Source: a virus
Reading direction: 5' to 3' (one strand)
DNA length: 56,120 nucleotides
Virus record (IMG/VR): IMGVR_UViG_3300021376_000071
Span: 1 to 56,120 of that record
Part shown: positions 15,703 through 53,628 of the stretch, piece by piece
How positions within the stretch are numbered: the first letter of the stretch is position 1
Layout: every line of letters begins with the position of its first letter
Notes under the pieces: generated by a model
Databases searched by the model: none
Told to the model about the DNA's origin: nothing
What the model saw: the letters and a program-made list of their open reading frames with translations, nothing else
Position numbers and translations under genes: made by a program

Positions 15703-17223
15703 TTAGTTTACTGTTTTCTGGCTTAGAGTGATGACAACAAATTCGGCTGGGTACTGTAGAGCAACACCAACTTCAATGTGTACTTCACCTTGGGCAATCA
15801 GATTGTCAGGGTTGTTTTCAGCATCGCACTTCACGAAGAAGGACTCTGCTGGTGATGCACCACGAAGACCGCCTTGATTTCGGTATTCATTTAAGAACGA
15901 AACTAGGACTCCGTTTATACGTTCCCAGAGTTTTTCGTCGTTGTTCTCAAATAGTGCAAACTGTGTTAAGTCTTCGCACTTTTTGCGAAGATAAATAAGC
16001 GAACGACGCATATTTACATACTTGTTCGCTGTACCGTCTTGCTTCAAAGTACGAGCACCCATTACTGAGATACCTGCACCTGGAAGTTGACGAATTGCGT
16101 TTACTGGAGCAGTTGCTCCGTTCAGGTCATCTAACTCTGTAGGTGTAAAGGTTTTTTCTGTTGAGATAGCACCTTGTACCACAGTACCAATACCTGCTGG
16201 AGCCTTAAAAGGACCAGTAGTTGCATCGGTGTTTAGATAGATACCAGCGATTGCACCAGAAGGTCCAATCTTACGAATTGATGATGCACCACGACCTACT
16301 GGGTCAGTAATGAAGTAGTGTGGGTAATACACAGCAGAGTGGCTATATCCAGAAATTGCAGCAGCGGTTTGAAGTGCTTGAGCAACTGTACGGGCTGCTG
16401 GAGTCTCTACAACAACGAAGTGTTTTCCACTTCCTGCTGCCCAAGGAATTGCTGTTGCATAGATAAGACCAGCAGTGTTAGCACCCATAAGCACATCAAG
16501 TGCTGGGAAGAAAACAACCAATGGTCTGTCGATTTTGTTGAACTCTGCAACGTATCCAGTTGAGTTGTCGTTAAAGTCTGCTTCAACGATTGTTCCACCG
16601 TTTGCTCCACCAGTTAATGGGAATACGGTTGTTGCTGGAGCGTTTACTGCATCAAGTACGGTTACACGGATGTGACCAGAGAGTGTATTGACTACAGTCT
16701 CTGCATAATCGCTTGATGTTACTGGAGTAAGAACGAGATTCTCATAAGATTCTAGAAGAACATCGTTTGTAATATCTGATGCGGTTCCTGTGACTCCCTC
16801 TTTGTAAACAGCGAGGTCATAGTAACCAGAACCAGCAGTTCCTGCGGATAACTTAACACGAAGGTTGTTTCCCTCTGTTCCTTTATCACGAGCATCAACT
16901 TTGATAACGTTTCCAACTCCTGATGCTCTTGTAATGGTAACACCTGCAGTAACTGCATCTGCTGGAAGCATACGCTTCACATAAAGTTCACGTCCTCCAT
17001 TTTGGAAGAACGCAGCAACCTGAAAGGTTGCTGGGTAGAGGGCGTTATACCCTCCAAAGTACTTGGTAAATTCATACCAAGTGTTAACAAGTGTTGCTGT
17101 GGTAGGTCCACTAGCAAAAGTGCCAACTACTGCTCCCGCCGCTGTTGCATTGCCTGTAACAGTAATAGGTGCAGCAAGTAGCCGTTCGCTCAGGTACACA
17201 CCTGGGCGTTTGTATACTGACAT
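15703..17223 (-). CDS. Tail sheath protein
   Basis: 506 aa. N-terminus YKRPGVYLSERLLAAPI is the sheath start motif; then FASGPTTATLVNTWYEF, YFGGYNALYPATFQVAAFFQNGG, and the C-terminal GISVMGARTLKQDGTANKYV, NMRRSLIYLRKKCED and EVHIEVGVALQYPAEFVVI. These are hallmarks of contractile sheaths of the T4 gp18/phage_tail_sheath family. Contraction drives the tube through the envelope. Adjacent to tube and completion proteins. Confidence 0.97.
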   Translation of the reverse strand: MSVYKRPGVYLSERLLAAPITVTGNATAAGAVVGTFASGPTTATLVNTWYEFTKYFGGYNALYPATFQVAAFFQNGGRELYVKRMLPADAVTAGVTITRASGVGNVIKVDARDKGTEGNNLRVKLSAGTAGSGYYDLAVYKEGVTGTASDITNDVLLESYENLVLTPVTSSDYAETVVNTLSGHIRVTVLDAVNAPATTVFPLTGGANGGTIVEADFNDNSTGYVAEFNKIDRPLVVFFPALDVLMGANTAGLIYATAIPWAAGSGKHFVVVETPAARTVAQALQTAAAISGYSHSAVYYPHYFITDPVGRGASSIRKIGPSGAIAGIYLNTDATTGPFKAPAGIGTVVQGAISTEKTFTPTELDDLNGATAPVNAIRQLPGAGISVMGARTLKQDGTANKYVNMRRSLIYLRKKCEDLTQFALFENNDEKLWERINGVLVSFLNEYRNQGGLRGASPAESFFVKCDAENNPDNLIAQGEVHIEVGVALQYPAEFVVITLSQKTVN

Positions 17224-18399: not shown

Positions 18400-18481
18400 G
18401 CAAAAACCTCCTAGAGGTGAGCAAAACAATCAGCAAGTACTACAGTAAAAATCCGCATGACTTTTACTGCTCACAAGAATA

Positions 18482-18508
18482 AAGCCCCCGAAGTTAATTC
18501 GGGGGCTT
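18482..18508. terminator. Bidirectional-looking rho-independent terminator
   Basis: Perfect 11-bp stem AAGCCCCCGAA with a 5-base loop (gttaa). On the minus strand the stem is followed by TTTATTCTT. It separates the run of tiny basic genes (18.57-19.6 kb) from the neck/tail genes, so it probably attenuates transcription into the tail operon. Confidence 0.8.
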
Positions 18509-18566
18509 AACTATCATTTCTTTTTACGCCATTATTACCCTCACGGGCTTGATGGGGGCTTTTCTA

Positions 18567-18716
18567 TTACTTCTTTTTCTTTCCTTTGGACTTAGAGGAC
18601 TTAGAGGACTTGGACTTCTTGCCTTTGCCCTTCTTTGCAAATTTACGGTTTGCAGCAGCAAGAGTCTTCATTCCGTGCTTGTTGTTAGGTTGCATACATC
18701 CACATGTTGCACACAT
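18567..18716 (-). CDS. Tiny Lys-rich protein with N-terminal Cys motif
   Basis: 49 aa, shorter than usual gene-caller limits. Starts MCATCGCMQPNNKHGMK and ends with about 25 residues of almost pure Lys/Ser/Gly. AGGAG lies 7 bases before the ATG. The three-cysteine start may bind metal and the tail could bind nucleic acid, but the function is unknown. Last of six tiny basic genes in a row. Confidence 0.75.
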   Translation of the reverse strand: MCATCGCMQPNNKHGMKTLAAANRKFAKKGKGKKSKSSKSSKSKGKKKK

Positions 18717-18725
18717 GTCTTTCTC

Positions 18726-18962
18726 CTATCTATGTCTTGCCGTTTTTTTGGCAATGTCTTTGGGTTGCTTTACGAACTGCTTTCCTTCTTTGTTACCTTT
18801 GGCTTTGGCACGATTAGTGGCAGCCTTCTCGCCAGGGGTTAAAGAATCCCAGGCTTTTTCTGGAAGGTAACGCTTTTTGCCTTTTGATGGCTTACCGTCA
18901 GAAGTTTTCCACTTCTGTGCAGTCCACTTCTTTAAAGACTCTTGCGACTTTTTTACAGCCAT
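18726..18962 (-). CDS. Small basic phage protein (DUF5872-like)
   Basis: 78 aa, about 30% Lys/Arg. Pattern SLKKWTAQKWKTSDGKPS, GKKRYLPEKAWDSLTPGEKA and GKQFVKQPKDIAKKTARHR matches a small basic family frequent in aquatic phage genomes (I think of it as DUF5872-type; the label is from memory). Probably a nucleic-acid-binding or virion-packaged protein. Shares one base with the upstream gene. Confidence 0.8.
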   Translation of the reverse strand: MAVKKSQESLKKWTAQKWKTSDGKPSKGKKRYLPEKAWDSLTPGEKAATNRAKAKGNKEGKQFVKQPKDIAKKTARHR

Positions 18963-19168
18963 TAGTCTTTGTAACCTCCACCCTTCTTCTTGTATTCAGA
19001 TGCAAGAAGTTGAGCCTTACGTGCAGACCATTCTCCTGGGTCTCCACCTTTTGTACCTGCTTTAATCTTGTTGAACAAAGCCTTACGCATACCAGGCTTG
19101 GTGTAGTTACCTGCCTCGTTTACTTTGGACTTTGATGCTTTTTTAACGGGCTTCTTTTTGGCTGCCAT
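18962..19168 (-). CDS. Small basic phage protein
   Basis: 68 aa. The core AGNYTKPGMRKALFNKIKAG, then GEWSARKAQLLASEYKKKGG, recurs in many tailed phages, often next to the previous family. Strongly basic with a folded-looking core, so a packaged or DNA-binding protein is plausible. Function unknown. Its ATG overlaps the stop of the 41-aa gene upstream as TAATG. Confidence 0.8.
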   Translation of the reverse strand: MAAKKKPVKKASKSKVNEAGNYTKPGMRKALFNKIKAGTKGGDPGEWSARKAQLLASEYKKKGGGYKD

Positions 19169-19293
19169 TATTTACCCTTCTTTGATTTGCGTATTTTTTT
19201 TGTTGCGGGAACGCAGTTGGGAACTTTCTTGCCGTTCTTGTTCTTCCAACCTTTTTGAACGTACCCCTCCCAACAAGGACCTCTTTCTGCCAT
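19168..19293 (-). CDS. Tiny basic protein with paired-Cys core
   Basis: 41 aa, below gene-caller cutoffs. Sequence includes PCWEGYVQKGWKNKNGKK and VPNCVPATKK, a Cys-Trp...Asn-Cys-Val-Pro pattern that recurs in short phage ORFs. It is bounded on both sides by TAATG-type overlaps, so it is very probably translated. Function unknown. Confidence 0.75.
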   Translation of the reverse strand: MAERGPCWEGYVQKGWKNKNGKKVPNCVPATKKIRKSKKGK

Positions 19294-19424
19294 TATCGAC
19301 CTTGCGTTCTGTGAGGGTTTGCTTTGTGCCATTGCTTTACTGCTTTGACACCTTGCTTAATGTTTTTAGACCCACTTTTTTTAGTGAGGTTAATCTTGTC
19401 GTACGACTTTTCGTTTTTTTGCAT
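19293..19424 (-). CDS. Tiny basic protein
   Basis: 43 aa. Contains SYDKINLTKKSG and VKQWHKANPHRTQGR, strongly basic and probably helical. Its stop overlaps the next ATG (TAATG), and it starts two bases after the stop of the 54-aa gene. A weak SD (GAAGAG) precedes it, so translation probably depends on coupling. Function unknown. Confidence 0.65.
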   Translation of the reverse strand: MQKNEKSYDKINLTKKSGSKNIKQGVKAVKQWHKANPHRTQGR

Positions 19425-19426
19425 GA

Positions 19427-19591
19427 TTACTCTTCAGATTCAGCAGACTCTTCTGTTACCTCTAATGCTGCAACTTTTGCAAGTGCTTCTTCTAATCTAA
19501 CAATTAAACGTTCATCATTGTTAGCAGTTTTTGCTGTTTCTAACTCTGCTGTAAGAGTTGCAGTCGCTGCTGCTTTTTGTTCTGCGTTCAT
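19427..19591 (-). CDS. Tiny acidic coiled-coil protein
   Basis: 54 aa with a good SD (GGAAG, 4-5 bases upstream) and an ATGA overlap with the end of the preceding neck gene. Almost entirely Ala/Glu/Leu/Lys heptads (LTAELETAKTA, RLEEALAKVAALE) ending in an acidic tail (EESAESEE). It is acidic where its five downstream neighbours are strongly basic, suggesting a possible partner. Function unknown. Confidence 0.7.
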   Translation of the reverse strand: MNAEQKAAATATLTAELETAKTANNDERLIVRLEEALAKVAALEVTEESAESEE

Positions 19592-20139
19592 TGGACTTCC
19601 TTCGTTGATAGGGCGTACTGTTTAAATTGTGGGTCATTGACCAACTCCTCAGAGTTGACCTCAGTGCAATCAACCGTGACTACTGCCCAGTTGTAACCAA
19701 AGTGACCACGGGGATTTACACGAGTTGGATTAAACACATTACCTCTGTAAAGGATACGGTCTTTAATGTGTTTTTGAGGGTTGACTAACATCTCAGGAAC
19801 AAGTCTTTGAACATCTCCTACGTTCAACACTATTCTAAGAGAGTCGACTACGTAGAAACCGCGTTCGTTCATTTCGTTTCCTCCACGAACCAATTGTACG
19901 GTTACGCAAGGCATATTGAAAGGAAGCATCCAACGACGACCTTCTCCAGGGGTGAAACTAGAGGTGTCGTATACGTCGTCTACGATAGCGGTAACGTTCT
20001 CATCTAGGTAGTACTCACTCCACCTAAACCAGTCAACATCAACACCTACAGGATGCTGTATGTCTTCCTTTATGGATTCATACATTCGCTTTTGTTCAAA
20101 GTCCATGTTGAAACGGCCTTGCATCCTGCTGCCTCGCAT
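19588..20139 (-). CDS. Head completion/neck protein
   Basis: 183 aa from the ATG in a TGATG junction with the glycosyltransferase gene; a TTG one codon earlier is also open. Beta-rich central part (VDWFRWSEYYLDENVTAIVD, WMLPFNMPCVTVQLVRGG, GFYVVDSLRIVLNVGDV) and an acidic end resemble neck proteins that close the portal after packaging. It comes before the connector and terminator genes, as expected. The fibre block separates it from the first neck gene. Confidence 0.6.
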   Translation of the reverse strand: MRGSRMQGRFNMDFEQKRMYESIKEDIQHPVGVDVDWFRWSEYYLDENVTAIVDDVYDTSSFTPGEGRRWMLPFNMPCVTVQLVRGGNEMNERGFYVVDSLRIVLNVGDVQRLVPEMLVNPQKHIKDRILYRGNVFNPTRVNPRGHFGYNWAVVTVDCTEVNSEELVNDPQFKQYALSTKEVQ

Positions 20140-21188
20140 CAAGACTCCTTATAGAACTCTAAGTTCTTCTTTAGACGTTTGTCTGTAGGGTTAAGGTTAA
20201 GGGCTTCTTGACCAAACGTCAGGGCTTCCTCTTTATAACCTAAATTATGAGCAGCAATTGCTGCTATGTCATAGGGAAAATCGCTCCACACTTTAGGGTC
20301 ATTTAGGTATTGAAGAGGCTTTTCTTTAATCTCAATCGCTCTTAAACAAGATGCGTAACACTCTCTCCATAATTCGTTTTCGTAGTAGTACTCTGCTAGT
20401 TCTACCCATGGTTCTCTACCTTCTGGATATTCAAGAGCAGCCTTCTTAAACCATTCTTCTCGTTCCTTACCTTCAGAACATTTAGCAATATACCTCATAG
20501 AGGCAGCACGTTCTGGTTTCCATACGGCTCGTTTTAAAGACAGATGGCGTTGAAGTTCTTCTTTAGCCTTGTCACACATTTGATGAAAAAAGTATTCCCG
20601 TCCTAAATAATGAGAGTTACGGTCATCTTCAGGGTCTTCAGCAACAGCCAGTTCTAACATGGGGAAATATTGACTACGAGATTTTGATTGGTCTGGATGA
20701 TGGTGAATTTGTAGCCCAATCCACTCTTGGACTTCTGGTATTAGGTAACTGTTTAATACTTCGTGTACTGGATGTTTCCAACGATATCCTTGACGAGCAT
20801 GAATTTTATCTCCACCGTAAACAAGTCCTTCTGAACCATCTGCGTTCCAAGACCACACGTATTTATATCGTGGTCTTGTTACAGTGCTTGGTGTTTTTTC
20901 TATATGTTCTCTCCAACCTGGAGCAAGAACTTCGTCAACGTCTAAAGCAATACAATAATCGATGTCTGTAGGAATATGAGAAAGAGAAGCATTGCGAGCA
21001 TCATCAAAACGCCAGGGTTTAATTCGTATATCTACGACGTGTATCCCTAACTCACGGGCTAATTCAACTGTTCCATCAGTAGACCCAGTATCAGCAAGAA
21101 GAAAAAAGTCTGCTTCTTTTGCTGACTCATACCACCTTTGAACAAATTGTTTTTCGTTTAAAGCGATGCTGTAGACCGCTATTTTCAT
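20139..21188 (-). CDS. GT2-family glycosyltransferase with TPR-like C-terminus
   Basis: 349 aa. GT-A fold: MKIAVYSIALNEKQFVQRWY, then LLADTGSTDGTVELARELG and IALDVDEVLAPGW, the DVD being the metal-binding DxD. C-terminal half carries TPR-like helical repeats (YRWKHPVHEVLNS, KAKEELQRHLSLKRA, AIAAHNLGYKEEALTFGQEA). Good SD (GGAG). Placed directly after the collagen-like fibre genes in a neck operon, it may modify the virion fibres; the alternative is modification of the host surface or cell envelope. No membrane anchor. Confidence 0.85.
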   Translation of the reverse strand: MKIAVYSIALNEKQFVQRWYESAKEADFFLLADTGSTDGTVELARELGIHVVDIRIKPWRFDDARNASLSHIPTDIDYCIALDVDEVLAPGWREHIEKTPSTVTRPRYKYVWSWNADGSEGLVYGGDKIHARQGYRWKHPVHEVLNSYLIPEVQEWIGLQIHHHPDQSKSRSQYFPMLELAVAEDPEDDRNSHYLGREYFFHQMCDKAKEELQRHLSLKRAVWKPERAASMRYIAKCSEGKEREEWFKKAALEYPEGREPWVELAEYYYENELWRECYASCLRAIEIKEKPLQYLNDPKVWSDFPYDIAAIAAHNLGYKEEALTFGQEALNLNPTDKRLKKNLEFYKES

Positions 21189-21205
21189 ATTGTACTCCGT
21201 TTAGT

Positions 21206-22024
21206 TTATATTCTTAGCCCTGATGAACCCATTCCTGAATGTATAGCGCAGTTGTAATAAACAGGGCTTGTAAAGTTGTAGGCTATTACGGCAGTTACCT
21301 TTCGGTTAGTAGCACTCGCACTCCAAGCAGCAGAATACGCAGTAAATGTTGTGTAGGTATAAGCGTCTATAGTGTAAGTAACTCCTTGTGCTGAGTTAAG
21401 AGCAGAGGCTGTGTTGTCTTGAGCAGAAGACAGATAGAACGGATGACCGTCAACGGTATCGCTAGATACGTCAAATACATAGGTCATTCCTGGAAGTAAC
21501 TTTAGTTGTGGGGTTTGAACGCCATCAACAAAGTAGTAATTACTTCCAAGGACAGACTGCACAGTAATGATATGAGTGATGACTGCTGTACCAGCAGGTC
21601 CAGCGTTACCTTGAACTCCAGCAGCACCTGTTGGTCCTGTTGGTCCTGTAGGTCCTGCAACGTTTGAATCAGCACCTGTTGGACCAGTTGGTCCAGTTAC
21701 TGTTGATGCTGGTCCAGTAGCACCTGTTGGGCCAACACCGCCTTCTGCACCTGTTGGTCCTGTTGGTCCTCCTACTCCAGTAGCACCTGTTGGTCCTGTA
21801 GGTCCAATAGAGCCAACTGGTCCAGTAGGTCCAGTAGGTCCGTCTGGTCCTGTTGGGCCAGTTGGTCCACCAGAGGGACCTGTTGGTCCTTGTGGTCCAG
21901 TCGGTCCTTCAGGTCCACCAGAAGGTCCTGTTGGTCCTGTAGGACCTGCAGCACCTGCTGGACCTTGAACGCCTTGTTCAATGCTTACCCAAGCGGAACC
22001 ATTCCAATACTTTAACTGTGGCAT
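21206..22024 (-). CDS. Collagen-like fibre protein with C-terminal cupredoxin-like domain
   Basis: 272 aa. Residues 1-20 hold a fibre lead-in ([13 protein letters not shown]), 21-145 are Gly-X-Y repeats dominated by Gly-Pro-Thr, and 146-272 form a beta-sandwich resembling a cupredoxin. His194 (GHPF), Cys259, His262 and Met265 (CAIHSGMG at the C-terminus) line up with the type-1 copper ligand set. Probably a trimeric head/neck fibre with a metal-capable tip. TAATG overlap with the upstream gene. Confidence 0.85.
21600..21965 (-). repeat. Collagen-type codon repeats in the 272-aa fibre gene
   Basis: Nine-base-unit repeats encoding Gly-Pro-Thr and Gly-X-Y, such as GGTCCTGTTGGTCC/GGACCAACAGGA on the two strands. 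Repeats of this sort can recombine and change fibre length. Confidence 0.85.
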
Positions 22025-23343
22025 TATGACAACCTACTCCAATATCGATGCGTCATATTACTAAACGAGTCTCGTGTTGTTGGCAAATCTGACGTAGAAG
22101 AAGCAGAGCCCGCCATTCTTGGAGAAGCAGCAAGAATTGCAGTAGAGGCGGAACCACCAGCCACTGATGCGAGGGTCGGGGGTGTAGAAGCAACTACAAC
22201 CACGGCTACTGCATAACGGCTACCTGCAGTTAGTGTGTAAGAAGTTGGATAACTACCAGTTGAATCTAATGCTCCTGTGTAAATGCTGTTTGAAACAGTA
22301 AATCTTGATGCGTCGTTATTTGTTCTTGCAACTAAAGTAGCGGTTGTTCCATCAAATGTATACAAACCAAAACGCACAAGTGATACACCTGAAGCAACAG
22401 TTGAACCTGAAGAAAACGATATGTTAGAAACTGTTAAATCTTCTGTAGGAGTAAAAAATGAAAAATACGTATTGTTTGAAGCAACTGCTGTAGTTCCATT
22501 CACTAAATCTCTTACTGGAACATCCAATGTTGTTGCAGAGTTATGCAGCGAGTCTCTAAGCCAAGGTTGAGCAACAGAGTTATAAGAAGTTTCATCCGTA
22601 TCAAGCCATAGAACATCTGTTGTAGAAGGAGTACTTGTTTGAGCAACTAGTGCAGTTGGTCCCGTAGGACCAGTTGGTCCAGTTGGTCCTGCATCACCTG
22701 TTGGTCCTGTAGGTCCTCCTGAAGGTCCGATAGGTCCTTGTGGTCCAGTAGGTCCAGTAACTGAGGGACCAAGTGCTCCAGTAGGTCCAGTAGGTCCAGC
22801 AGCACCTGTTGGTCCTGTTGGTCCTCCTGAAGGTCCGATAGGTCCAGTAGGTCCAGTAGGTCCGTTTGGTCCAGCAGAACCTGCAGGACCAGTTGGTCCT
22901 AAAGTTATGGAAGCAATCCACTGAACACCGCTCCAAAAACTAACGGAATTATCTGTTTTAATCCAGATATCGCCAATTTGAGGAAGATTGGGTTCATAAG
23001 CCGAATAAGTTACATACTGTTTACCGTCTACTTCGTAAGCAGCAGTAACTGAATATGAAAGGTCTGCAGTTGTTCCTGTAACTTTTATGGTATCACCAGT
23101 ATTTAATGCAAATCTAAATGTTTCAAATGCTTGACCTTGTGTTATTTCAAGGTCTTTAACTATTACCAAAGTTGTTGGGTCTGTATAAACAGAACCAGTT
23201 GGCACAACATAAACAGTTGTTTTTGCTGTTTGAGTTCCTTTATTAGCAATAATTAAAGAAGCAACGTAACCACGACTTGCGGTTACAAGGTCTGTAAGAG
23301 AATCTCTACCAGGATTGGATACGGCTAGACGTGTTACTGGCAT
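22024..23343 (-). CDS. Collagen-like fibre protein with N-terminal paralogous beta domain
   Basis: 439 aa from the ATG at 23343 (TAATG junction); the track start nine residues earlier has no support. Residues about 1-110 are a beta domain with FETFRFALN, homologous to the 174-aa protein upstream. A short module ending in VQWIAS precedes the Gly-X-Y region (about 145-245, Gly-Pro-Thr rich), and residues about 250-439 form a C-terminal beta-rich adhesin/carbohydrate-binding-like domain. Likely a neck-side fibre. Confidence 0.8.
22655..22893 (-). repeat. Collagen-type codon repeats in the 439-aa fibre gene
   Basis: The same Gly-Pro-Thr codon units as in the other collagen genes, about 26 triplets with short breaks (for example [10 protein letters not shown]). 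Confidence 0.85.
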
Positions 23344-23867
23344 TAGTCTGTTACCGTCACTTTCTTCCAACCATCGTTAGTTTTAACTTCTAACGAATCA
23401 GTATCAGTATTAAATCTTACGTAACCAACTTCAGCAGCAGTTTCTCTAGCAGCAGTTGTGCCTTTATCAAGGTAAATAACGTTGTTAATTCCTCTAATAG
23501 TCTTATTTCTAAAGACTGCTGGCAAATCTGCTGGACTGAAATCGTCTGCTTGTAAAATTCCGTATGCTGAGAAAGAAGTTCCCGCTATTGTAGATTTTAC
23601 AAAAATAGAGTCGTTTGCATTTAATGCAAAACGAAACGTTTCAAAAGACTGGCCTACTCCAACAGTTAGGTTTGATGCAATGTACGCATATTCGTTTGCT
23701 TGTGCTGCTCCAGCAGGAACAACCCAAACGTCTACTTTGCAAACAGGAGTTGCTTGTGCTGAAGTATTAGCAATAACAACTGAAGTTAAATGAGCGTTTA
23801 GTACCGCGGTAAGTTGTTGATTACTATTAGCAGCGGGAGTCGCAACTCCAAGTCGAATAATCGCCAT
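23343..23867 (-). CDS. Fibre-associated beta protein, paralogue of the 439-aa fibre N-terminus
   Basis: 174 aa. Contains [25 protein letters not shown] and [19 protein letters not shown], matching the N-terminal domain of the downstream collagen-like protein ([40 protein letters not shown]). The C-terminus has the module [20 protein letters not shown], a common phage fibre cap. It may be an attachment or adaptor protein for the fibres. SD aggagg before ATG. Confidence 0.75.
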
Positions 23868-23879
23868 GGGTTTTCCTCC

Positions 23880-26800
23880 TTAAGCCTGTGCTTCAGTCCA
23901 CGTTAACTTTGCTGAACAGAGTGTAGTATTACCAGTCAAGCGAGCAGCAGCAATTGTCAAAATGTCTGGTCCATCTGGGAATACTGAGTCTCCACCAAGA
24001 ATTGAGTTTGATAACTCAAACAAATCTCCGATATCCACAGTAGTCGACTGTTCTACACCGTTCTGACCAGCAGCACGGAAGTTATAAATTTGAGTACCGC
24101 CAGAAACTGTGTCGTTACCAGTGTGTTGGATAATTTGAGTCAACGAAGGAGAAGTCACTGCAGAAAAGTTTAAGTTGTTCAAACGAGGGTTAATAAGAAC
24201 CTTTACGTCAACCAACTGTGTTGTTTGAACAGCAAGTTCTACCATTCGCAACTGCATGCGGTTAATAACGTCACGGTCACCAAGTTTTCCAGTCAAACCG
24301 CTTGAAACCGAAGGAGACAGGCGGATTGAAAGAAGTGGTTGATAGTTAGCACCAGAAGAGTTGTTTAAAGAACCCTGTGGGTACAAGAAGAATGTGTATT
24401 GAGCATTACCTTGAGAAGTAAAGTCAATTGTGTTAGTTCCACCACTAGCATTGGCATCCGCTGCTGTTGGGTGAAGCGTTACGTTGTTTGCATCTACTGC
24501 ACGTATAAATAGCAAAGGAGTGCTATTTTGTAAATTAACAAAGTTGTAGGCTGGGTTTTGTGCAACAACTCTTGGGTTTTGTGAATTTGCACCTGTAATT
24601 CCTTGAGCAGTTAAACCAATAAACTGAACAGGTGTTCCTGTTGTAAATCCGTGTGTAGGAATGTTGATTTGGTTTGTTGTAACGTTAATTGCTGTTGAAC
24701 CAAAGGTCTTTGCTGTGGTTCCAGAAATTGTAAGAGTCTGACCAGGTTGTGAGAAGAGGTAGGCTTTATCATCATCAAACTTACCGTCCATGATGACTGA
24801 AGTACCCCAGTGGAATAAGAACGGAATATAAGTTGGGTCAGTGTAGGTAGTTACCTCATAGCGAGTAGGTAAGTTACCTGAGCGGAAATATGATTCTAAC
24901 TGGAAGTTATTGTGAATAAATTCGTGAACATATTGAACTTCGCCCTCTTTAGTCTTAAAGCCGTAACGAATCTTACCCGCACCGTACCAAGAGTAGTCAA
25001 TGTAAGCCATTTGAATCTTGTTTAGGTCAAGGTTATATCCAGTTGGACCTGTGCCATCGCAAGGGTCAATAGACCAGTTTTCTTGAGGAGTACGAGTATC
25101 TACTGTCTTAGTCATGATAATACCGCTCTTTGCTGGAGTGAAAGAGTGTGGTGTTCCTGAACCAGCAGAAGAAATAGCAACAACAACTGTTGCATCTGGT
25201 GATGCTTTTAATTTGAACTGATTATTGTCAATAAAATCAACGTAGTAGACGCGACCGTTAATTAAACCACCAATAGGTGTTCCATCAATTGAATCGTAAA
25301 TAACTGGAAGATTATTAGAGAATCCATGATTTTGTAAAACAAAAGAATCATCTGCAGCACGAACTACGCCTGTATTTCCATCTCCAGGGTTGAACTCTTT
25401 TTCAATACCATTTGAACCTTTGTATTCAGGCTTAATGGTTAAACGTGTATCACTAACGATGCTAGAAATCTTGTAAGACTGACCACGCATAACAATGTAG
25501 TCTCCAACGTTAAGTTGCGTTGTAAATGTTGTCCCAGTACCAAATACGTATTCAGTTCCTTGCAGAGCAGCAGCAGTACCAGCAACTTGTTGAGTTGAAG
25601 AACGACGAACTGCATAAATTTTTTGTCCATCAAACTCAAAAAACATTCCGTTTTGGAAATCAAACATACCAGCACGGATTGCACCATTTTGCCAACTATC
25701 TACGTTAAATTGTGGGAATCCATAAGCAATGTTGTTTGGTGCTGTTGGTACTGTAGAGGACGCAATACAAGTAAAGGTTAACGAATCAATAACTGTTACT
25801 TGGAAAATACCGTTGTAAACAGTGCTTAGTGCACCTAGGTTTGTCCTAGACTCAGAAATTTCAATGTACAAACCATTAATAAGACCATGAGGACGACGAG
25901 TTACACATTGGAATGTGGTATTGCTGACTCGACTTATCTTCTCAATATCAATTGTAGGTTTGAAGTTAATACCAAATGAAGTTTGCAAACCTTTACCAGA
26001 CTGATAACGGAAGTACTTACGAGTCTGACGAATAATCTGAGCATTAGAGGTTCCAACACCAGTCGACATTTCAACTCCACCGTCAAACGGTCTGTGAAGT
26101 GAGTATCCTTGTGGACGTACATAAACAAACGTCTGATATGAGTAAGACACAGAGGAGTAAGATGCTGCGTATGGTCTGTTAAGAGTTATCTGAGTATCAG
26201 AACCAATAGCAGTAATTGTTCTAATAATTGGAGCAGTTGGAATAGTTTCGGTAAAGGTGTGAGTAGTTCCAGAACCCTGAGTAGTTACAACTACTGGGTT
26301 TGTATTGGTATTTGCATCGTTTAAAGTGTTAAATAAACGAATTGTGTTTGCATCTATCCTTCTAACAAAGTAGAAGAAAGTAGAGTTCAAACCTGTAGGA
26401 GCAACGGAACCAGCACCTGTATTGTACTGAACGCAATCTCCTGTCGTAAATCCGTGTCCTGTAAGCGTAAATTGGTTTGTTGGCTGAACCGCAACGTTAG
26501 TACTAGAGAAAGTAGACACAGTAGTTGTGTTTGGTGGGAACAAGCGGAACTTGTCACCAACTTTAAGAATCTTAGCAAATGAAGTGTTTACACCATTTAC
26601 AAGGGTTGAACCTGAAGCCACACTTACGGTTCCAGAACCAGTTACAAACCCATTAATTTGAGCAGTTGTAAGGGTGTGGTCTACACCGCCACCCCATGAA
26701 GTCAAAGTCAAAGCAATACCAGATGCAGCGTTTTCTTCAGAAGAGGCTAACTGAATATAGTCTTTGCTTACGTTGATTACGTAATAGTTACTTTCATTAG

Positions 26801-29471
26801 TTAAACCTCCAACGTTTGTTCCACCAGCATTGCTGTAAGTAACCTTTGTACCAGTAATAAATCCGTGTGAAGGAATACGCAGGTTATTAGCAGCAAGGTC
26901 AATAACAGAACGTGGAGTAAACGTCTTTATGATGAAAGGAACGAATCCATTAGCAGGAACTGTAAAGGTTGTTGTAGAGGGAACCGCATTAACTGTGTAG
27001 GTTCCATCTGGAGACTTAGTCAAAGACAATATTCTATGACGACCAGCACCAGCAGTTGTTAAGTTAACAGGTACTGGGGTAGCAGCAGTAGCATTATCCA
27101 AAGTTGCGGCTAATCTTAGGTTGTCTCCGTCTATTTGGATAATGTAGTACGGATTACCAGAAACTAAACCACCGATAGCAGTCTGACCAACAGAGTCATA
27201 CTGAACAAGTTCTCCGTTAGAGAATCCGTGAGAAGGAATTGAGATGGTATCTGTAACAAAATCAACAGAGTTTGTAGTAATTGAGTGGTTTCCAGTACCT
27301 AACGAAGTCAGGTTAATAATGTTTGTTCCTTCTTTGTTACTTGCTAAACGAAGAATGTTATTATCAACTTTAGAGATAAAGTAAGAACCATTGTTAGTTA
27401 AACCACCGATAACGGTTCCACCACCTGAAGAATAAACAATGCGAGAACCAGTAACTAAATCATGGCCTGGAACGTAAAGGCTATCTTCATCTAGGTTAAC
27501 AACCACGTAGATAAATGAGTGTGTATTTCCAGTTCCTGCAGAAGTAAAGTCAATTACTGGACCATTTAAAGACTGGCTTAACTGAATGTTATTGCTATCG
27601 ACTACTGTCTTTACGTAATAGGTAGCGTTATTTTGAAGAGGAGCAATTGATGTTCCACCACCATTTGAATAACGAATTGGCTGATTTGCCAAGAAACCGT
27701 GAGATGGAATGGTGATGATGTCTGTAGAAGTATTTACAACAACCTTTCCAAATTGTTCGCTACTTGTAGTAGCACTTGGAATTGTAAAGTTTACGTTGGT
27801 AAAATTAGGTGCTGGAGTTGTGCTTAGTTTGTAAGTCCAGTTATTAATACGGTTTACATAATAAGTAGTAGTTGTGTTTAATGGTGTAGCACCAGTTCCA
27901 GTCAAACGATAGACCAGAGCATCTCCATTAGAAAGCCCGTGACCATCAGCAACGTTGATTGTATCTGCATCTAAGTCTAGAGTGATTGGGTGTACTGCGT
28001 GATACTCGCTTCCTGCTGCAACAATATTGATTTGATTTGTTCCATCATTTGCATCTTGAGCAGTTGGATGGAATGTAAACGCACTAGAAGCCGTAGATAA
28101 CAAAGTAACAACAACTTCACCTTCATTATTGCCTGTGTTATAAGCACCGATATTAGTAATTGTTGCTCCGCCAAATGATGATGAACCATTGTATTGACCA
28201 GTAGAAGTAGCAACGTTTGTAGCACCAGTTACGATAAAGGAACCGCCACCACCGCCAGGGGCTGTGCCTTGAGCGTTACCACCAGCACCACCAGAGTAAC
28301 CACCAGCACCACCAGGAGCACCGTAGGCTTGACCGTCAGAACCAGCACCTCCGCCAAAACCACCGTGTCCAGAAGAACTACCAGCACCACTACCACCAAC
28401 AAGACCGTTGTTGAAACCGCCACCACCGCCACCGTATGAAGAGTTACCACCAGCAGTTAGGAAACCACCTCCACCACCACCAGCAGTTGCACCAGGAGCA
28501 CCGTTACCATTAGCACCTGCCGTTGCATTTGCATTATCACCGTTATTGGTTAGAACAGCGTTACGTCCACCAGTTGTATTTGAGGAAGCAGAACCTCCAC
28601 CTGCAACAAAAAGAGGTACGTTTCCTGATTTACGAACAACAAATGTAGCACCTGAAGAAGCGGGCCAAGCATCGTTGTTTCCTGGGTTTTCACCACGTTG
28701 TCCAACAGCAATAGTTATGATTTCGCCACGAGTTAAGTCAACTCGTCCTTGAACGATTGCACCGCCACCACCTGCTGCACGACCTGCTTTACCAGGAGCA
28801 CCCTTTACGTTGAATTCATAGGTTCCATTAACTGGAACAGTCCAATCTTGATAACCCTGATAACTTCCTTGGTTAAAGTAAGCGGTGTTGGTTGCCCATG
28901 TTGCACCAGCCGTATTATAAGCAGAAACTAAAGTAGAAAGAGCAGGGCCATTACGTCCAGTAGTTCCACCTGTTGTGAATGTAAGAGTAGTAAAGTTATA
29001 CAAAGGAGCAGCAGTGTCAGAGAAGGCTGTTGAAGTCTTCTTTAAGTAATAAGTGTTTCCAGAGGTTAATCCAGAAAGAGGAGTGCTGTTTGTGTAGTAC
29101 TTAACTGCTTGATTGGTTGGGTAGTTACTGCTTATATGTAGTTTGTTTCCATAAACAAATGGGAAGTCAAGAGTGATGTTTCCAGTTGTAAGATTAGTAA
29201 TGTCAATTGCAGCACCACCGCTAGTATTCGAAAATGTGATTTTGCGGTCTTCAACAACGTTTGTAAATACTAAGTTTCCAGAAGTAAGACCTGTTAATGC
29301 ACCAGTTCCATCACGATAGATGAAAGGTCGATTTGCTCCAGCAGCAATTGCAGCGGGAGTTACTTCATTAACTGTTTTGTTTACGTAGACAAAGTTATCT
29401 TCAATGTTTACGTTAGTTTTTGACAACGAGTGAGTACCGCTAGTACCAGCCGCAGTTATATTAATGGGCAT
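23880..29471 (-). CDS. Giant fibre/adhesin (1863 aa) with glycine-rich domain and tandem beta repeats
   Basis: Residues about 205-460 form a Gly-rich domain with GEIITIAVGQRG and poly-Gly loops, like the Gly_rich (ALK-type)/polyglycine-sandwich adhesins. Residues about 475-1120 carry at least seven tandem repeats with the signature IPSHGFxxG, YSxxGGTxIGGLxxxxxYYV and DxxxLRLA. Residues about 1130-1400 are a conserved-looking virion domain (FEFDGQKIYAVRRSSTQQ); the end contains a beta-rich assembly-like domain. Probably a long fibre or whisker-like appendage. Encoded between two neck genes. Confidence 0.8.
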   Translation of the reverse strand: MPINITAAGTSGTHSLSKTNVNIEDNFVYVNKTVNEVTPAAIAAGANRPFIYRDGTGALTGLTSGNLVFTNVVEDRKITFSNTSGGAAIDITNLTTGNITLDFPFVYGNKLHISSNYPTNQAVKYYTNSTPLSGLTSGNTYYLKKTSTAFSDTAAPLYNFTTLTFTTGGTTGRNGPALSTLVSAYNTAGATWATNTAYFNQGSYQGYQDWTVPVNGTYEFNVKGAPGKAGRAAGGGGAIVQGRVDLTRGEIITIAVGQRGENPGNNDAWPASSGATFVVRKSGNVPLFVAGGGSASSNTTGGRNAVLTNNGDNANATAGANGNGAPGATAGGGGGGFLTAGGNSSYGGGGGGFNNGLVGGSGAGSSSGHGGFGGGAGSDGQAYGAPGGAGGYSGGAGGNAQGTAPGGGGGSFIVTGATNVATSTGQYNGSSSFGGATITNIGAYNTGNNEGEVVVTLLSTASSAFTFHPTAQDANDGTNQINIVAAGSEYHAVHPITLDLDADTINVADGHGLSNGDALVYRLTGTGATPLNTTTTYYVNRINNWTYKLSTTPAPNFTNVNFTIPSATTSSEQFGKVVVNTSTDIITIPSHGFLANQPIRYSNGGGTSIAPLQNNATYYVKTVVDSNNIQLSQSLNGPVIDFTSAGTGNTHSFIYVVVNLDEDSLYVPGHDLVTGSRIVYSSGGGTVIGGLTNNGSYFISKVDNNILRLASNKEGTNIINLTSLGTGNHSITTNSVDFVTDTISIPSHGFSNGELVQYDSVGQTAIGGLVSGNPYYIIQIDGDNLRLAATLDNATAATPVPVNLTTAGAGRHRILSLTKSPDGTYTVNAVPSTTTFTVPANGFVPFIIKTFTPRSVIDLAANNLRIPSHGFITGTKVTYSNAGGTNVGGLTNESNYYVINVSKDYIQLASSEENAASGIALTLTSWGGGVDHTLTTAQINGFVTGSGTVSVASGSTLVNGVNTSFAKILKVGDKFRLFPPNTTTVSTFSSTNVAVQPTNQFTLTGHGFTTGDCVQYNTGAGSVAPTGLNSTFFYFVRRIDANTIRLFNTLNDANTNTNPVVVTTQGSGTTHTFTETIPTAPIIRTITAIGSDTQITLNRPYAASYSSVSYSYQTFVYVRPQGYSLHRPFDGGVEMSTGVGTSNAQIIRQTRKYFRYQSGKGLQTSFGINFKPTIDIEKISRVSNTTFQCVTRRPHGLINGLYIEISESRTNLGALSTVYNGIFQVTVIDSLTFTCIASSTVPTAPNNIAYGFPQFNVDSWQNGAIRAGMFDFQNGMFFEFDGQKIYAVRRSSTQQVAGTAAALQGTEYVFGTGTTFTTQLNVGDYIVMRGQSYKISSIVSDTRLTIKPEYKGSNGIEKEFNPGDGNTGVVRAADDSFVLQNHGFSNNLPVIYDSIDGTPIGGLINGRVYYVDFIDNNQFKLKASPDATVVVAISSAGSGTPHSFTPAKSGIIMTKTVDTRTPQENWSIDPCDGTGPTGYNLDLNKIQMAYIDYSWYGAGKIRYGFKTKEGEVQYVHEFIHNNFQLESYFRSGNLPTRYEVTTYTDPTYIPFLFHWGTSVIMDGKFDDDKAYLFSQPGQTLTISGTTAKTFGSTAINVTTNQINIPTHGFTTGTPVQFIGLTAQGITGANSQNPRVVAQNPAYNFVNLQNSTPLLFIRAVDANNVTLHPTAADANASGGTNTIDFTSQGNAQYTFFLYPQGSLNNSSGANYQPLLSIRLSPSVSSGLTGKLGDRDVINRMQLRMVELAVQTTQLVDVKVLINPRLNNLNFSAVTSPSLTQIIQHTGNDTVSGGTQIYNFRAAGQNGVEQSTTVDIGDLFELSNSILGGDSVFPDGPDILTIAAARLTGNTTLCSAKLTWTEAQA

Positions 29472-29477
29472 TATTTA

Positions 29478-32057
29478 TCAGCCTTTCCATCTAACAACGA
29501 CAATTCCTGAACCACCATTGCCACCTTTAGTACCCGCCCGATAGTGAGCACCGCCACCACCGCCACCACCAGTGTTTGCACCACCGTTACCACCTGGAGT
29601 GTTGGCCTGTTGGTTAGGACCTCCACCACCACCTGGTTGACCAGCGTTCAATCCAGCACCACCGCTTGTAGAACCAATGGCTCCACCGCCACCGCCTCCG
29701 TTACCACCATTACCACCAGTGGATGAAGAGTAAGCAGCACCTCCTCCTCCACCACCCCAGAAGTAGTTAGTTCCTAAAATGTTGCTTTGAATTCCCACAC
29801 CGCCGTTTGGTTGACTTGATGCGTCAGTACCATTACCACCAGCACCACCACCACCACCTGAGTAATACTGCGGTCCACCATTACCGCCACGGTTTCCGTA
29901 TTGGGTAAAGGAAATTAAACCGTTTTGGGATGCCGATAATTGGTTACCAGTACGCCCACGGCTGCCAGAGTTTCCGTCTGAATAACCAGAACCACCGCCA
30001 CCACTACCGCCAAAGCCAGCATAACCTTGAGAAGGGGAGTACTGCCAATAAGATGAACCACCAAATCCACCACCGTTCGCGACGATACTTACTCCGCCAG
30101 GTCCTGAAATGGTTGAGTTACCACCATTTGTACTGTTTACACTGTACTGGTGATTATCTCCGTTACCGTCTCTATTTGCACCACTACCGTTACCACCAGC
30201 ACCAACAGAAATGTTGTAAGTGCCTGACTGGGCTTGGAAAGTGCCAATAACGACACCTCCACCACCGCCACCACCTCCCATATCAAATCCGCCACCACCG
30301 CCACCTGCAACAACTAGGAATTCCAAAACTCCAGTTCCTGCAACAGTAAAGGTGTTGCTGCCTGTAGAAGTAAATGAAAGAACTTTGTAAGTCTCAGAAC
30401 CGACAGTAATAGATGTCGGACTTATGCTAGAGGTTACTTGCAAACCTGAAGAAGTTTCTAATTGAATATTGCTGTTATCAAGTCTGGTTACAAAATGATA
30501 GTCTTTTGTAAATCCGCTTCTAGTTATGGCTCCACCATTTGGGTAGGTGTATTTAACCATGTCCCCAGTAACTAATCCGTGGTTTTGAATGTGAATTATG
30601 TCTTTATCAATAGATACGCCAATTTTTTTAATAGTGAGTGTTCCAGAGTAAGAACCGTTAGAAAGAACTATATCGCTACCGCCAGGAGTTGCCGCTAACT
30701 TAATTTGAACAAGACCTGGAGCAACATCTACAACTAAGTTAAATGAAGAAATCCAATAGGTTGTGTTATTTGCTAATCCTCCAGGAACTGTTCCAGTAGA
30801 GGAAAGGAATACCATTGCTCCAACATATAGACCAGTAGACTGTGTGCTACCAGCGTTGTTTTGCATTTGGATGATTGCAGAACCCGTTGAAGTTGAGTTA
30901 ACAGTGCTTGTTGCACCTTCAGAGTTTGCTCCATCAAAATTCAATCCAGCACCCGCAGTTAAAGCAATCGTTGTTTGATTTTGGTTGTCGAGGTTATTAC
31001 CAGCAAATTTTTGAGCAAGATTTGCTTTACGGAAGGTTCCAGTCATTGAGACTGTTATATCGATGGCGTTACCATTAGGAGTTGCACTTACTTGGAATAC
31101 CGAAGAAGAAGTTCCAAGAAGATTATTAGTTTTTAAGTAAACTATTCCACGAGGTGCTGTAGCAAAATAGCCAGAAGATGCAGCGATGTTGTAGTAAAGA
31201 GGAGTTCCAATTTGGAGTCCTGAGAAAGTTTCTGCTGCTTGATGAGTTACTGTAAAAGTATCATCACCAGTGTTTACAGATGCGATTGTACTATCTGCAC
31301 CACCACTAGAGAACGATTTATTTGTTAAATCTAATGCGTATGTAGTTAAAGTGTTAGCACCATCAAATGTCTGTGCAGTTGCAGTGTTTGAAGAGTCAAA
31401 AGTTCTAGAACTTGTGTTAGATGCGTCAAACTCTTGTGAGATGGTGGAGTTTAGATTCAAGAAATAGAACGGAGTATTAACACCAAATCCATGAGGAGCA
31501 TCTGTTTTTAAAGTAAGTGTAGATTGTCCTTGAGCATTTGTAACAAGACCTTCAGAGTCTGAAATTTTAATTTGTGAACCTTGGAAGAACTGTCCTGTAA
31601 TAACAGAGGTATAAAGGTCAACAATAGAAGCAGTACTTAACTGATTTTGCTTGCTAAGGTAGGTAAGAGTTGTGCTATCTGGAATTGAGTTAATGATATA
31701 TGAGCCATCAGCAGTTAAGGACTTAGTTCCAGAAACGTTAATGGGGATACCAACAGCAAGACCATGAGGAAGAGAAGTTGTAATTTTTATTTCACGAGAA
31801 CCTGCAGTAGTAATCATGTCCACAAGGTTTGGAATTGTGGTGTCACCAGAAGCAGAAAAGAACGATGGAGTGTTGTTGATTAACTCAACTGTTTCCCACT
31901 TGGTTGGCTGCAGACCGTATTCAAAGTCCGTGTCGATGAGCGTCTGCGGCTCACTGACACGCAGTTTCGTTACGGGGTCAAGAAATTCAGCGGGGAAACG
32001 GATTTCTCCACCAACGCCACCACTGCTGCCTGTGCTACCGCCGAGAAAACCTGGCAT
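29478..32057 (-). CDS. Fibre/adhesin with beta repeats and C-terminal polyglycine receptor-binding-like domain
   Basis: 859 aa. N-terminal (about 20-570) beta repeats share the HGLxxG and TTYWI modules of the 1863-aa protein. From about residue 575 (LEFLVVAGGGGGG) to the C-terminus there are dense GGGG runs separated by short loops, ending IVVVRWKG. This matches the polyglycine-sandwich layout of phage receptor-binding tips such as S16 gp38-type adhesins. Variable loops between glycine runs probably set specificity. An AAAGGT SD precedes ATG. Confidence 0.8.
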   Translation of the reverse strand: MPGFLGGSTGSSGGVGGEIRFPAEFLDPVTKLRVSEPQTLIDTDFEYGLQPTKWETVELINNTPSFFSASGDTTIPNLVDMITTAGSREIKITTSLPHGLAVGIPINVSGTKSLTADGSYIINSIPDSTTLTYLSKQNQLSTASIVDLYTSVITGQFFQGSQIKISDSEGLVTNAQGQSTLTLKTDAPHGFGVNTPFYFLNLNSTISQEFDASNTSSRTFDSSNTATAQTFDGANTLTTYALDLTNKSFSSGGADSTIASVNTGDDTFTVTHQAAETFSGLQIGTPLYYNIAASSGYFATAPRGIVYLKTNNLLGTSSSVFQVSATPNGNAIDITVSMTGTFRKANLAQKFAGNNLDNQNQTTIALTAGAGLNFDGANSEGATSTVNSTSTGSAIIQMQNNAGSTQSTGLYVGAMVFLSSTGTVPGGLANNTTYWISSFNLVVDVAPGLVQIKLAATPGGSDIVLSNGSYSGTLTIKKIGVSIDKDIIHIQNHGLVTGDMVKYTYPNGGAITRSGFTKDYHFVTRLDNSNIQLETSSGLQVTSSISPTSITVGSETYKVLSFTSTGSNTFTVAGTGVLEFLVVAGGGGGGFDMGGGGGGGGVVIGTFQAQSGTYNISVGAGGNGSGANRDGNGDNHQYSVNSTNGGNSTISGPGGVSIVANGGGFGGSSYWQYSPSQGYAGFGGSGGGGSGYSDGNSGSRGRTGNQLSASQNGLISFTQYGNRGGNGGPQYYSGGGGGAGGNGTDASSQPNGGVGIQSNILGTNYFWGGGGGGAAYSSSTGGNGGNGGGGGGAIGSTSGGAGLNAGQPGGGGGPNQQANTPGGNGGANTGGGGGGGAHYRAGTKGGNGGSGIVVVRWKG

Positions 32058-32077
32058 CAGTTTTTACCTTTCATTCA

Positions 32078-34051
32078 TTACGCTCCAAGCCACCATGATG
32101 TTGAAATCGCAAGCGTTCCTACTGTGCCTTGAGGACCAGTTGGACCAGCATTTCCTGATGCAACTTCTATCCATGCACCTTGAAAGAATACATAAGTTTT
32201 TGCGTTTTGAGTGTTAAACCAGCCGTCACCTGCATCTGCAGTTGCAGTAGATGGAGCGGTTGGACCTGTAGCAGTGAATTTACCAACAGGACCTGTTGGA
32301 CCAGTAGGACCTAACGGACCAGTAGGACCCGTGACTTGTGACTGTGGGCCAATAGGACCAGTAGGGCCAGTAGGTCCTGTAGGACCAGTCTCGCCTTTCT
32401 TGTCATAAATAGCGATAACACCAAGTTGTGCACCATCAGTTGAACTTTGATAAACAATATTTGCTGGTGCGTTTAGAGGAACAACATAAGTGATTATGTT
32501 TGGTGAAGAAGCACTGTACACACCAACAGCAGCATTGTTGCCTGTTGTTCCAGGAACTGTTGCACCGTTGTTTTCTGATAAACGAAGTGCAAATGGGTCG
32601 TTAACAACTAGACCACTGCAATCAAAGTAATAAGTTTCACCACGAACTAAAGTAAGGGTTGGGTTATCACCCTCAACGTCTGCAACTAAATATGCTGTAT
32701 TTCCTGAATTATTTGTAATTACAAACGTTGTTCCATTACGTGGACCCATAGGACCAGTAGGACCTGTAACTGATGGACCAGTCGAACCTGTTGGACCTGT
32801 AGGACCAACGAACGGACCTCCGCTTACCCAATCAGAGCCATTCCAAATATAAATGTTGCTATCTGCAGAAACTACGTATGCGTCACCAGAAGTATTTCCA
32901 GTTGAAGGAAGATTTCCAGTTGCTGAAACAACGCCTTTAACATTGATAGATGTTCCTTGTGCACCAGTTGGACCAGTCGGACCTTGCGAACCTGTAGGAC
33001 CAGTTACAGTTGAAGCAGGACCAGTAGCACCAGTTGGTCCAAGTGGACCAGTTGGACCAGTTACATCAGAAGCAGGACCAGTAGGTCCTGTTGGACCTTC
33101 AGGACCGATAGGACCAGTTGGTCCTGTTACGTTAGAAGCAGGTCCTGTTGCACCTGTTGGTCCTTGCAAACCTTGTGGACCAGTAACACCTTGAATATTA
33201 CCGACGTTTTGCCAACCACCTGCACCGCCATTTAATGACGGATTCCACACAACTAAATCGCCATTTGTTAAAAGGTAAGCATCACCAATTTGTCCTGTTG
33301 GTCTTGCTGCTACTAGTGTTTCAAAATCTGCGTACTCGCCTTTAATAACTGTTGCTGCACCAGCAGGACCAGTAGCACCTGTAGGTCCAGTTGGTCCTAC
33401 AACGTTTGAATCAGCACCAGTTGAACCTGTTGGACCTGTTGGGCCAACATTGCCTTGTGCACCTGTAGGTCCTGTAGGTCCTTGATTACCTTGTTGACCT
33501 TGAGACCCTGTTGGTCCTGTTGGTCCTTCAATACCTTGAATACCTTGCGGACCAGTTGGGCCAGTTGGTCCTATAGGACCAGTAGGGCCAGTTACATTTG
33601 AAGGAAGTCCTTGAATACCTTCTGGACCTGTTGGACCAGTCGGTCCCAATGGACCTTGTGGGCCAGTTGCACCATCAACACCAATAACACCATCAAAACC
33701 ACGTGGACCAGTAGGACCAGTAGGACCTAAACCACCTTCAGGACCAGTAGGTCCTGCTGCACCTGTTTCACCTAACGGACCACGAGGACCAGTTGCACCA
33801 GTTGGTCCAGTTACACCTTCAAAACCACGAGGACCAGTTGGTCCTGTTGGTCCAGTTACAGCAGGACCTGTAGGACCTGTTGCACCAATTGGACCTGTTG
33901 CACCAGTTGCTGATGCAGAACCTGCAGGACCCGTTGGTCCAGTTGGACCTGAAGGACCAGTAAAGCCACGAGGACCTCGTTGATTAGGAACACCAGGAAG
34001 TAACGATGGGTCAATCTCTGGATACTTAGGACTGTTCGGATTAATTGGCAT
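32078..34051 (-). CDS. Large interrupted collagen-like fibre protein
   Basis: 657 aa. Gly-X-Y tracts at about 28-233, 289-367, 415-440 and 553-592, rich in Gly-Pro-Thr, are split by two small knobs of fibre type ([17 protein letters not shown] near 255 and [20 protein letters not shown] near 395) and by a cupredoxin-like domain (about 442-550) that lacks the copper ligands. The C-terminal piece has [14 protein letters not shown]. Likely a trimeric neck or head fibre. It starts directly at the stop of the neck gene upstream. Confidence 0.85.
32280..34000 (-). repeat. Interrupted collagen-type repeats in the 657-aa fibre gene
   Basis: Four Gly-X-Y blocks separated by three non-collagenous domains. 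Interruptions often read S(N/T/D)V(T)GPTG, a recurring break within the helix. Confidence 0.85.
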
Positions 34052-46284: not shown

Positions 46285-46452
46285 CTAATCCTCTTCTTTA
46301 TTTCTCAATGGGTAAGTAATTCCCCAAAGAACAATTGTTCCCAAAGTTGCCCAGCCAACAACGGTCTTTGCAGACCCATCAAGCACAACCCAGGCAATAA
46401 ACATTCCTAGAAGTGTCCAGGACTGTTCAAGAAAGTCTTTCAGTATTTTCAA
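46285..46452 (-). CDS. Tiny two-helix membrane protein, holin candidate
   Basis: 55 aa, TTG start with GGAG eight bases upstream, overlapping the TGA of the 902-aa gene (CCTTGA). Hydrophobic segments [15 protein letters not shown] and [19 protein letters not shown], ending in a short charged tail (RNKEED). Fits holin-size proteins. The region to 46244 is otherwise non-coding. Missed by length-filtered gene callers. Confidence 0.65.
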
Positions 46453-53427: not shown

Positions 53428-53628
53428 ATGGAAGGTTTAGAAAAAATTGACTTTCGTGGCATACCCACGCATGAGTGCCCCGTGTGTGGAAGCACGTCCT
53501 TCCGTATAGTAGCGGGGTTTATTGACTACAACATAGCCTGGTGGGGAACAGACGCTGAGTGCTACGAGTGCGGAACTAAACTGACTGTTCCAACTCCCGT
53601 GGATGACCCTGAGAGGTCTGAATCGTAG
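53428..53628 (+). CDS. Plus-strand zinc-ribbon protein
   Basis: 66 aa and the only supported plus-strand gene. ECPVCGSTSFRIVAGFIDYN, then DAECYECGTKL gives a four-Cys zinc ribbon. 3' end overlaps the GT25 gene by 53 bases, convergently. It may be a small transcription or nucleic-acid accessory. The short promoter region is apparently leaderless. Confidence 0.7.
   Translation: MEGLEKIDFRGIPTHECPVCGSTSFRIVAGFIDYNIAWWGTDAECYECGTKLTVPTPVDDPERSES

Follow-up and report, generated by a model that had tools for sequence, protein, structure and literature searches.

Many bacteria and phages carry collagen-like sequences rich in threonine (Thr), which raises the question of how these are stabilised without hydroxyproline. 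IMG/VR virus record IMGVR_UViG_3300021376_000071, analysed here as a single stretch of 56,120 bases (the window), belongs to a phage whose tail is contractile; in it, genes for collagen-like fibres are followed by a gene for a family 2 glycosyltransferase (GT2; 20139-21188, minus strand). This enzyme is probably the phage counterpart of collagen O-glycosyltransferases of the SgtA type, directed at the Thr residues of the fibres and stabilising their helices. An original prediction, made from this DNA alone, had the fibre Thr glycosylated by two phage enzymes, GT2 and a family 25 glycosyltransferase (GT25). The GT2 half is well supported by adjacency to Thr-rich collagens, a peptide-glycosyltransferase fold, and an architecture and neighbourhood like those of SgtA, while the GT25 half is unsupported for this phage.

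Fibre genes and collagen-like repeats

A packed minus-strand block running from 34051 to 19588 was found to contain three collagen-like genes, two genes for long fibre proteins, one for a 174-amino acid (aa) fibre-type protein, the GT2 gene and a gene for a 184-aa product, with one-base overlaps between several adjacent genes. The gene coordinates in the original prediction were all correct, on the minus strand. The collagen-like genes and GT2 are given below, Gly-X-Y triplets being counted only in runs of at least four.

32078-34051, minus strand: tail fibre gene, the largest of the collagen-like ones, 657 aa; 109 triplets, 40 of them Gly-Pro-Thr, longest run 28; PHROG tail and tail fibre families
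22024-23343, minus strand: collagen-like fibre gene, 439 aa; 26 triplets, 12 Gly-Pro-Thr
21206-22024, minus strand: collagen-like fibre gene, 272 aa, directly upstream of GT2; 37 triplets, 15 Gly-Pro-Thr
20139-21188, minus strand: glycosyltransferase with GT2 domain and TPR repeats, 349 aa, proposed collagen Thr O-glycosyltransferase (motifs, fold, neighbourhood)

The three collagens together held 172 triplets, of which 67 were Gly-Pro-Thr; Thr occupied position Y in 83 and position X in 4, and Lys was found at Y in none (0/172). Shuffling each protein gave on average 1.2 (21206-22024), 0.2 (22024-23343) and 4.9 (32078-34051) triplets, so few that the repeats cannot be put down to chance. All three genes matched Pfam Collagen, that at 22024-23343 slightly under the curated cut-off. 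Three fibre genes with Gly-Pro-Thr repeats were thus confirmed; the description of them as dominated by Gly-Pro-Thr holds for the repeats and not for the whole proteins, which have globular parts too.

The GT2 glycosyltransferase

Only 17 bp lie between the last collagen open reading frame (ORF; 21206-22024) and the start of the GT2 gene, a spacing that agrees with the predicted position of GT2 directly after the fibre genes. The GT2 product matched Pfam PF00535 (E 3.5e-8) and PHROG 13126 (E 9e-115); the label of the latter, "beta-1,4-glycosyltransferase", is a database name and no evidence for a wall substrate, and a search of NCBIfam returned no family name. The GT2 domain is followed by C-terminal TPR-like repeats, and the motifs invariant in an alignment of 43 relatives include DTGSxDxT and DxDE. 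An AlphaFold model (mean predicted local distance difference test score, pLDDT, 94.9) consists of a GT-A part and then helical repeats. Based on a Foldseek comparison of this model with the PDB, the peptide glycosyltransferases SunS and ThuS ranked first (E 3e-14), followed by TPR proteins, the TPR domain of OGT, and GmaR; TarS and TarP, which are wall enzymes, scored less well. GmaR, the flagellin O-GlcNAc transferase of Listeria, was also the best PDB match by sequence (E 5e-4, over the GT2 domain).

SgtA of Clostridioides difficile is a protein of 358 aa, with a glycosyltransferase domain and C-terminal TPR repeats, whose gene lies beside bclA3 (PMC7157674). The collagen-like region of BclA3, on the spore surface, contains multiple Gly-Pro-Thr repeats, and in vitro recombinant SgtA transferred beta-O-linked N-acetylglucosamine (GlcNAc) onto Thr in BclA3 peptides, Ser also being usable (PMC7157674). 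Clostridial collagen-adjacent enzymes matched the profile of the window GT2 family over its full length (~1e-36). Because the GT2 beside the fibre genes is of the same kind as the C. difficile enzyme for spore-collagen Thr, the fibres of this phage are, by analogy, very probably sugar-coated.

In the proposed mechanism, GT2 and the collagen-like tail fibres would be made from one late gene cluster, and GT2 would transfer a sugar to the Y-position Thr of the Gly-Pro-Thr and Gly-Ala-Thr repeats of the fibres while its C-terminal TPR repeats keep hold of the extended chain. The sugar would most likely be beta-GlcNAc donated by UDP-GlcNAc; by the same analogy, GlcNAc is more likely than galactose of the Riftia type. 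The glycans would take the place of hydroxyproline, giving the triple helices stability and shielding them. GT25 would be dispensable and, if involved, would extend the first sugar.

Linkage of GT2 to Thr-rich collagens

The linkage was examined from both sides. Counts are among the matches listed; contigs are fragmentary, rows are related to each other, and collagen calls depend on thresholds. Starting from the enzyme, 80 related IMG/VR loci were compared, and at least 38 of the 48 with sufficient flank had collagen within 3 kb, nearly always upstream and on the same strand. This is a lower bound, since ORF picking lost some collagen ORFs: two apparent negatives (L046 and L064) are probably artefacts of this kind, and in a third locus (L076) a short collagen is present below the detection threshold. 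In the closest isolate, Actinomycetia phage DSL-LC01 (L001), two collagen genes are followed by a hypothetical gene, a tryptophan halogenase gene (18433-20004) and GT2; the halogenase gene thus stands between the collagen cluster and the enzyme. Among phages sharing one tail gene, every GT2 carrier with sufficient upstream sequence had collagen, and none was found in the 1-7 kb of sequence covered in the seven phages without GT2.

Bacterial relatives of GT2 had Thr-rich collagen alongside in 21 of 43 loci with sufficient flank, in most cases as the immediate neighbour. Collagen lay near GT2 in 27 of 50 bacterial genomes, where whole-genome collagen counts lead one to expect 1.2 by chance; these genomes leaned towards positives, not being an unbiased draw, and some of the loci could be prophages. 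In a dereplicated tree of 84 members below 75% identity, 58 had collagen within 3 kb, phages being represented as well as six or more phyla of bacteria (Actinomycetota, Bacillota, Mycoplasmatota, Planctomycetota, Pseudomonadota and Verrucomicrobiota).

Starting from the collagen, a tblastn search of phage records with part of a collagen as query gave no match at E 1e-5. A DNA pattern for Gly-Pro-rich repeats yielded 62 phage contigs with real collagens, classed as Thr-rich (Thr at 40% or more of Y positions; 27 contigs) or Thr-poor (less; 35 contigs). Of the Thr-rich contigs, 8/27 had a strong GT2 match, compared with 0/35 of the Thr-poor ones (Fisher p 6.6e-4); when only contigs of at least 15 kb were counted, the figures were 7/16 and 0/24. 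The median proportion of Thr at Y was 0.68 in GT2 phages and 0.26 in the collagen-first sample (p 3e-10). Taken by itself, the GT25 family PF01755 gave no clear distinction between Thr-rich (5/31) and Thr-poor (2/31) collagen contigs.

Because GT2 is small and is linked to Thr-rich collagen in phages and in more than one bacterial phylum, it offers a direct handle on collagen stability, and its action would bear on fibre stability, host binding and fibre recognition.

The GT25 gene of the window

53576-54229, minus strand: divergent GT25 glycosyltransferase, 217 aa from ATG (Pfam, motif, model)

Based on its sequence, this gene appears to be a real but divergent member of GT25. The product scored 23.7 bits against Pfam PF01755, for which the cut-off is 24; a relative (L084) passed with 25.9, and an EDD motif was invariant. 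A model (pLDDT 68) best matched bacterial beta-1,4-galactosyltransferases, and COLGALT1 was also matched. The role of collagen galactosyltransferase was not supported for this gene. Animal COLGALT enzymes act on hydroxylysine, and a COLGALT-type action of the window GT25 was ruled out because the window collagens have no Lys at Y. A distance of 19.5 kb separates the gene from the closest collagen gene and places it outside the interval of the original prediction (20139-34051). The record, perhaps an incomplete one, gave no match to the 2-oxoglutarate (2OG)-Fe oxygenase family PF13640, looked for as the lysyl hydroxylase partner. Close relatives of the gene occurred in three contigs, and among 37 further GT2/GT25 records this type of GT25 was found only in the close relatives of the window; the idea that this subfamily regularly accompanies GT2 collagens was rejected. 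Glycosylation of the window fibres by GT25 is thus unsupported, and the enzyme has perhaps a role in glycan extension or at the host surface. A gene for S-adenosylmethionine decarboxylase (PF02675; 54489-54953) lies next to it, an arrangement kept in two relatives (L083 and L084).

Other collagen-modifying enzymes in phages

Co-occurrence of GT25 with GT2 collagens failed for the window subfamily and was found with a different one. In one phage group (L267, 2994-8441, minus strand; L384-L416) genes for collagen, GT25 and GT2 stand in a row: GT2 was the next gene after GT25 in 33/33 loci and collagen was seen in most. These collagens have Thr in ~85% of Y positions and almost no Lys. The query had been picked for its arrangement, which persists down to 49% identity.

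An addition to the proposed role of GT2, and not an alternative to it, would be that GT2 adds the first sugar to fibre Thr and GT25 extends it to a disaccharide. The row of genes in the L267-type group, with its Thr-rich and nearly Lys-free collagens, speaks for such a pathway, as does the likeness of the window GT25 model to bacterial beta-1,4-galactosyltransferases. For the window phage it is rather unlikely, given that its GT25 is only distantly related to the L267-type enzyme (phmmer E 5e-4, set of three sequences), in addition to its distance from any collagen and its confinement to close relatives.

A different type of enzyme was identified in marine phages. The product of L223 2798-4621 (minus strand), of 600 aa, combines GT25, PLOD-GT (E 4e-49) and 2OG-oxygenase domains and has relatives in 59 phage contigs (L325-L383); judged by these domains, it resembles a virus-encoded collagen lysyl hydroxylase/glycosyltransferase. 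In the collagens visible near such enzymes, Lys made up 22% of pooled Y positions; the share in GT2 phages was 0.1% (p 6e-18). Enzyme type thus tracks the repeat letter, Thr or Lys, as predicted if enzymes are matched to their substrates. On balance, tailed phages appear to possess at least two collagen-modifying systems matched to the repeat, namely GT2, with or without GT25, for Thr-rich Lys-free collagens and PLOD/GT25/2OG-oxygenase for Lys-containing ones. If this is true, glycosylation of virion collagen would be widespread in phages and common to bacterial surface collagens.

Separate 2OG-Fe(II) oxygenases (PF13640, E ~1e-15) were encoded at L223 4618-5178, L260 5634-6236 and L229 257-799. 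Their genes lie close to those of Thr-rich phage collagens, in L223 immediately beside one, and have a GT25 as neighbour; they may hydroxylate prolyl or lysyl residues of the collagen. The statement in the original prediction that bacteria lack prolyl hydroxylase needs correction, as prolyl/lysyl-type 2OG hydroxylases are present in some bacteria and phages.

Alternative substrates of GT2

Several observations weigh against collagen as the substrate of GT2. Five GT2 contigs of 43-128 kb had no collagen match at all. In loci of the L008 and L010 type, Gly-rich proteins which are not collagen stand beside GT2, so that the substrate of the family may differ; the GT2 of these contigs, which lack a collagen match, has 589 aa with an extra C-terminal domain. 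Jumbo phages carry distant GT2 relatives, and their collagens are remote and Thr-poor. From the collagen side, 19/27 Thr-rich contigs, many of them fragments, were without a strong GT2 match. The likeness to SgtA itself is by published description, the profile comparison covering the clostridial enzymes.

The loci with Gly-rich proteins bear on the possibility that GT2 glycosylates other parts of the fibre cluster, such as Gly-rich adhesin domains, and lies near collagen because fibre genes travel together. Gly-rich domains are also encoded in the window, where the remaining features of the tail region are as follows.

29478-32057, minus strand: fibre/adhesin-like gene, 859 aa, Gly-rich C-terminus (Pfam Gly_rich_2)
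23880-29471, minus strand: fibre/structural protein, 1863 aa, Gly-rich segment, between collagen genes
23343-23867, minus strand: tail-fibre-type protein, 174 aa, one-base overlap with the following ORF
15703-17223: tail sheath gene

With bacterial relatives adjoining Thr-rich collagens in several phyla (some loci possibly prophages) and GT2 presence tracking the Thr content of collagens, this explanation is improbable. Still less probable is modification of the host surface (teichoic acid or another wall glycan) to block superinfection, the usual suggestion for glycosyltransferases of freshwater actinophages and pelagiphages (PMC10202952, PMC7029224) and in line with the PHROG name and its class, moron: GT2 is embedded in a virion gene cluster beside collagens in many lineages, its bacterial relatives also adjoin collagens, and its nearest folds are peptide glycosyltransferases, with TarS and TarP ranking lower. 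If GT2 does act on fibre Thr, some phage "lipopolysaccharide glycosyltransferases" would be recast as virion-modifying enzymes.

Two other products of the window were noted. A 738-aa protein of the tail region (860-3076) with a carbohydrate-binding domain (PF02018) is a candidate receptor-binding protein. A 902-aa Ser/Thr/Pro-rich protein (46449-49157) has a PA14 domain and a signal-like N-terminus and is conserved in L083 and L085.

Comparison with known systems

A literature search that fell short of most subscription journals turned up no description of phage collagens being glycosylated by the GT2 family. Virus-encoded glycosylation of collagen is known from Mimivirus L230 (PMC9614988). 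This enzyme and animal PLOD and COLGALT share the GT25 fold; their acceptor is hydroxylysine, whereas the window collagens have no Lys at Y and the record has no PF13640 match.

Thr glycosylation as a stabiliser of collagen has been cited (Bann et al. 2000, in PMC3368898). The cuticle collagen of Riftia has the same Gly-Pro-Thr repeats, galactosylated, but is an animal collagen and its sugar is galactose. It stands as a precedent for sugar-modified Gly-Pro-Thr, as originally proposed, and is not the only one: bacterial collagens favour Thr at Y, and BclA is glycosylated (review, PMC8968730). Sugar is no universal need, as E. coli O157 has a phage-type collagen that keeps its stability unglycosylated (PMC3368898).

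The glycocin glycosyltransferases SunS and ThuS, the best fold matches, likewise have polypeptide acceptors; their substrates are small glycocin peptides and their identity to the window GT2 is ~16%. GmaR, the best sequence match, modifies Ser/Thr of a surface filament protein, as proposed here, but has another substrate and doubles as an antirepressor. In the SgtA-BclA3 system the collagen belongs to a spore coat instead of a phage tail fibre, and the enzyme gene lies upstream of the collagen gene instead of downstream; the two systems agree in enzyme size (~350 aa), in the order of glycosyltransferase domain and TPR repeats, and in the position of the enzyme gene beside a Thr-rich collagen-like gene.
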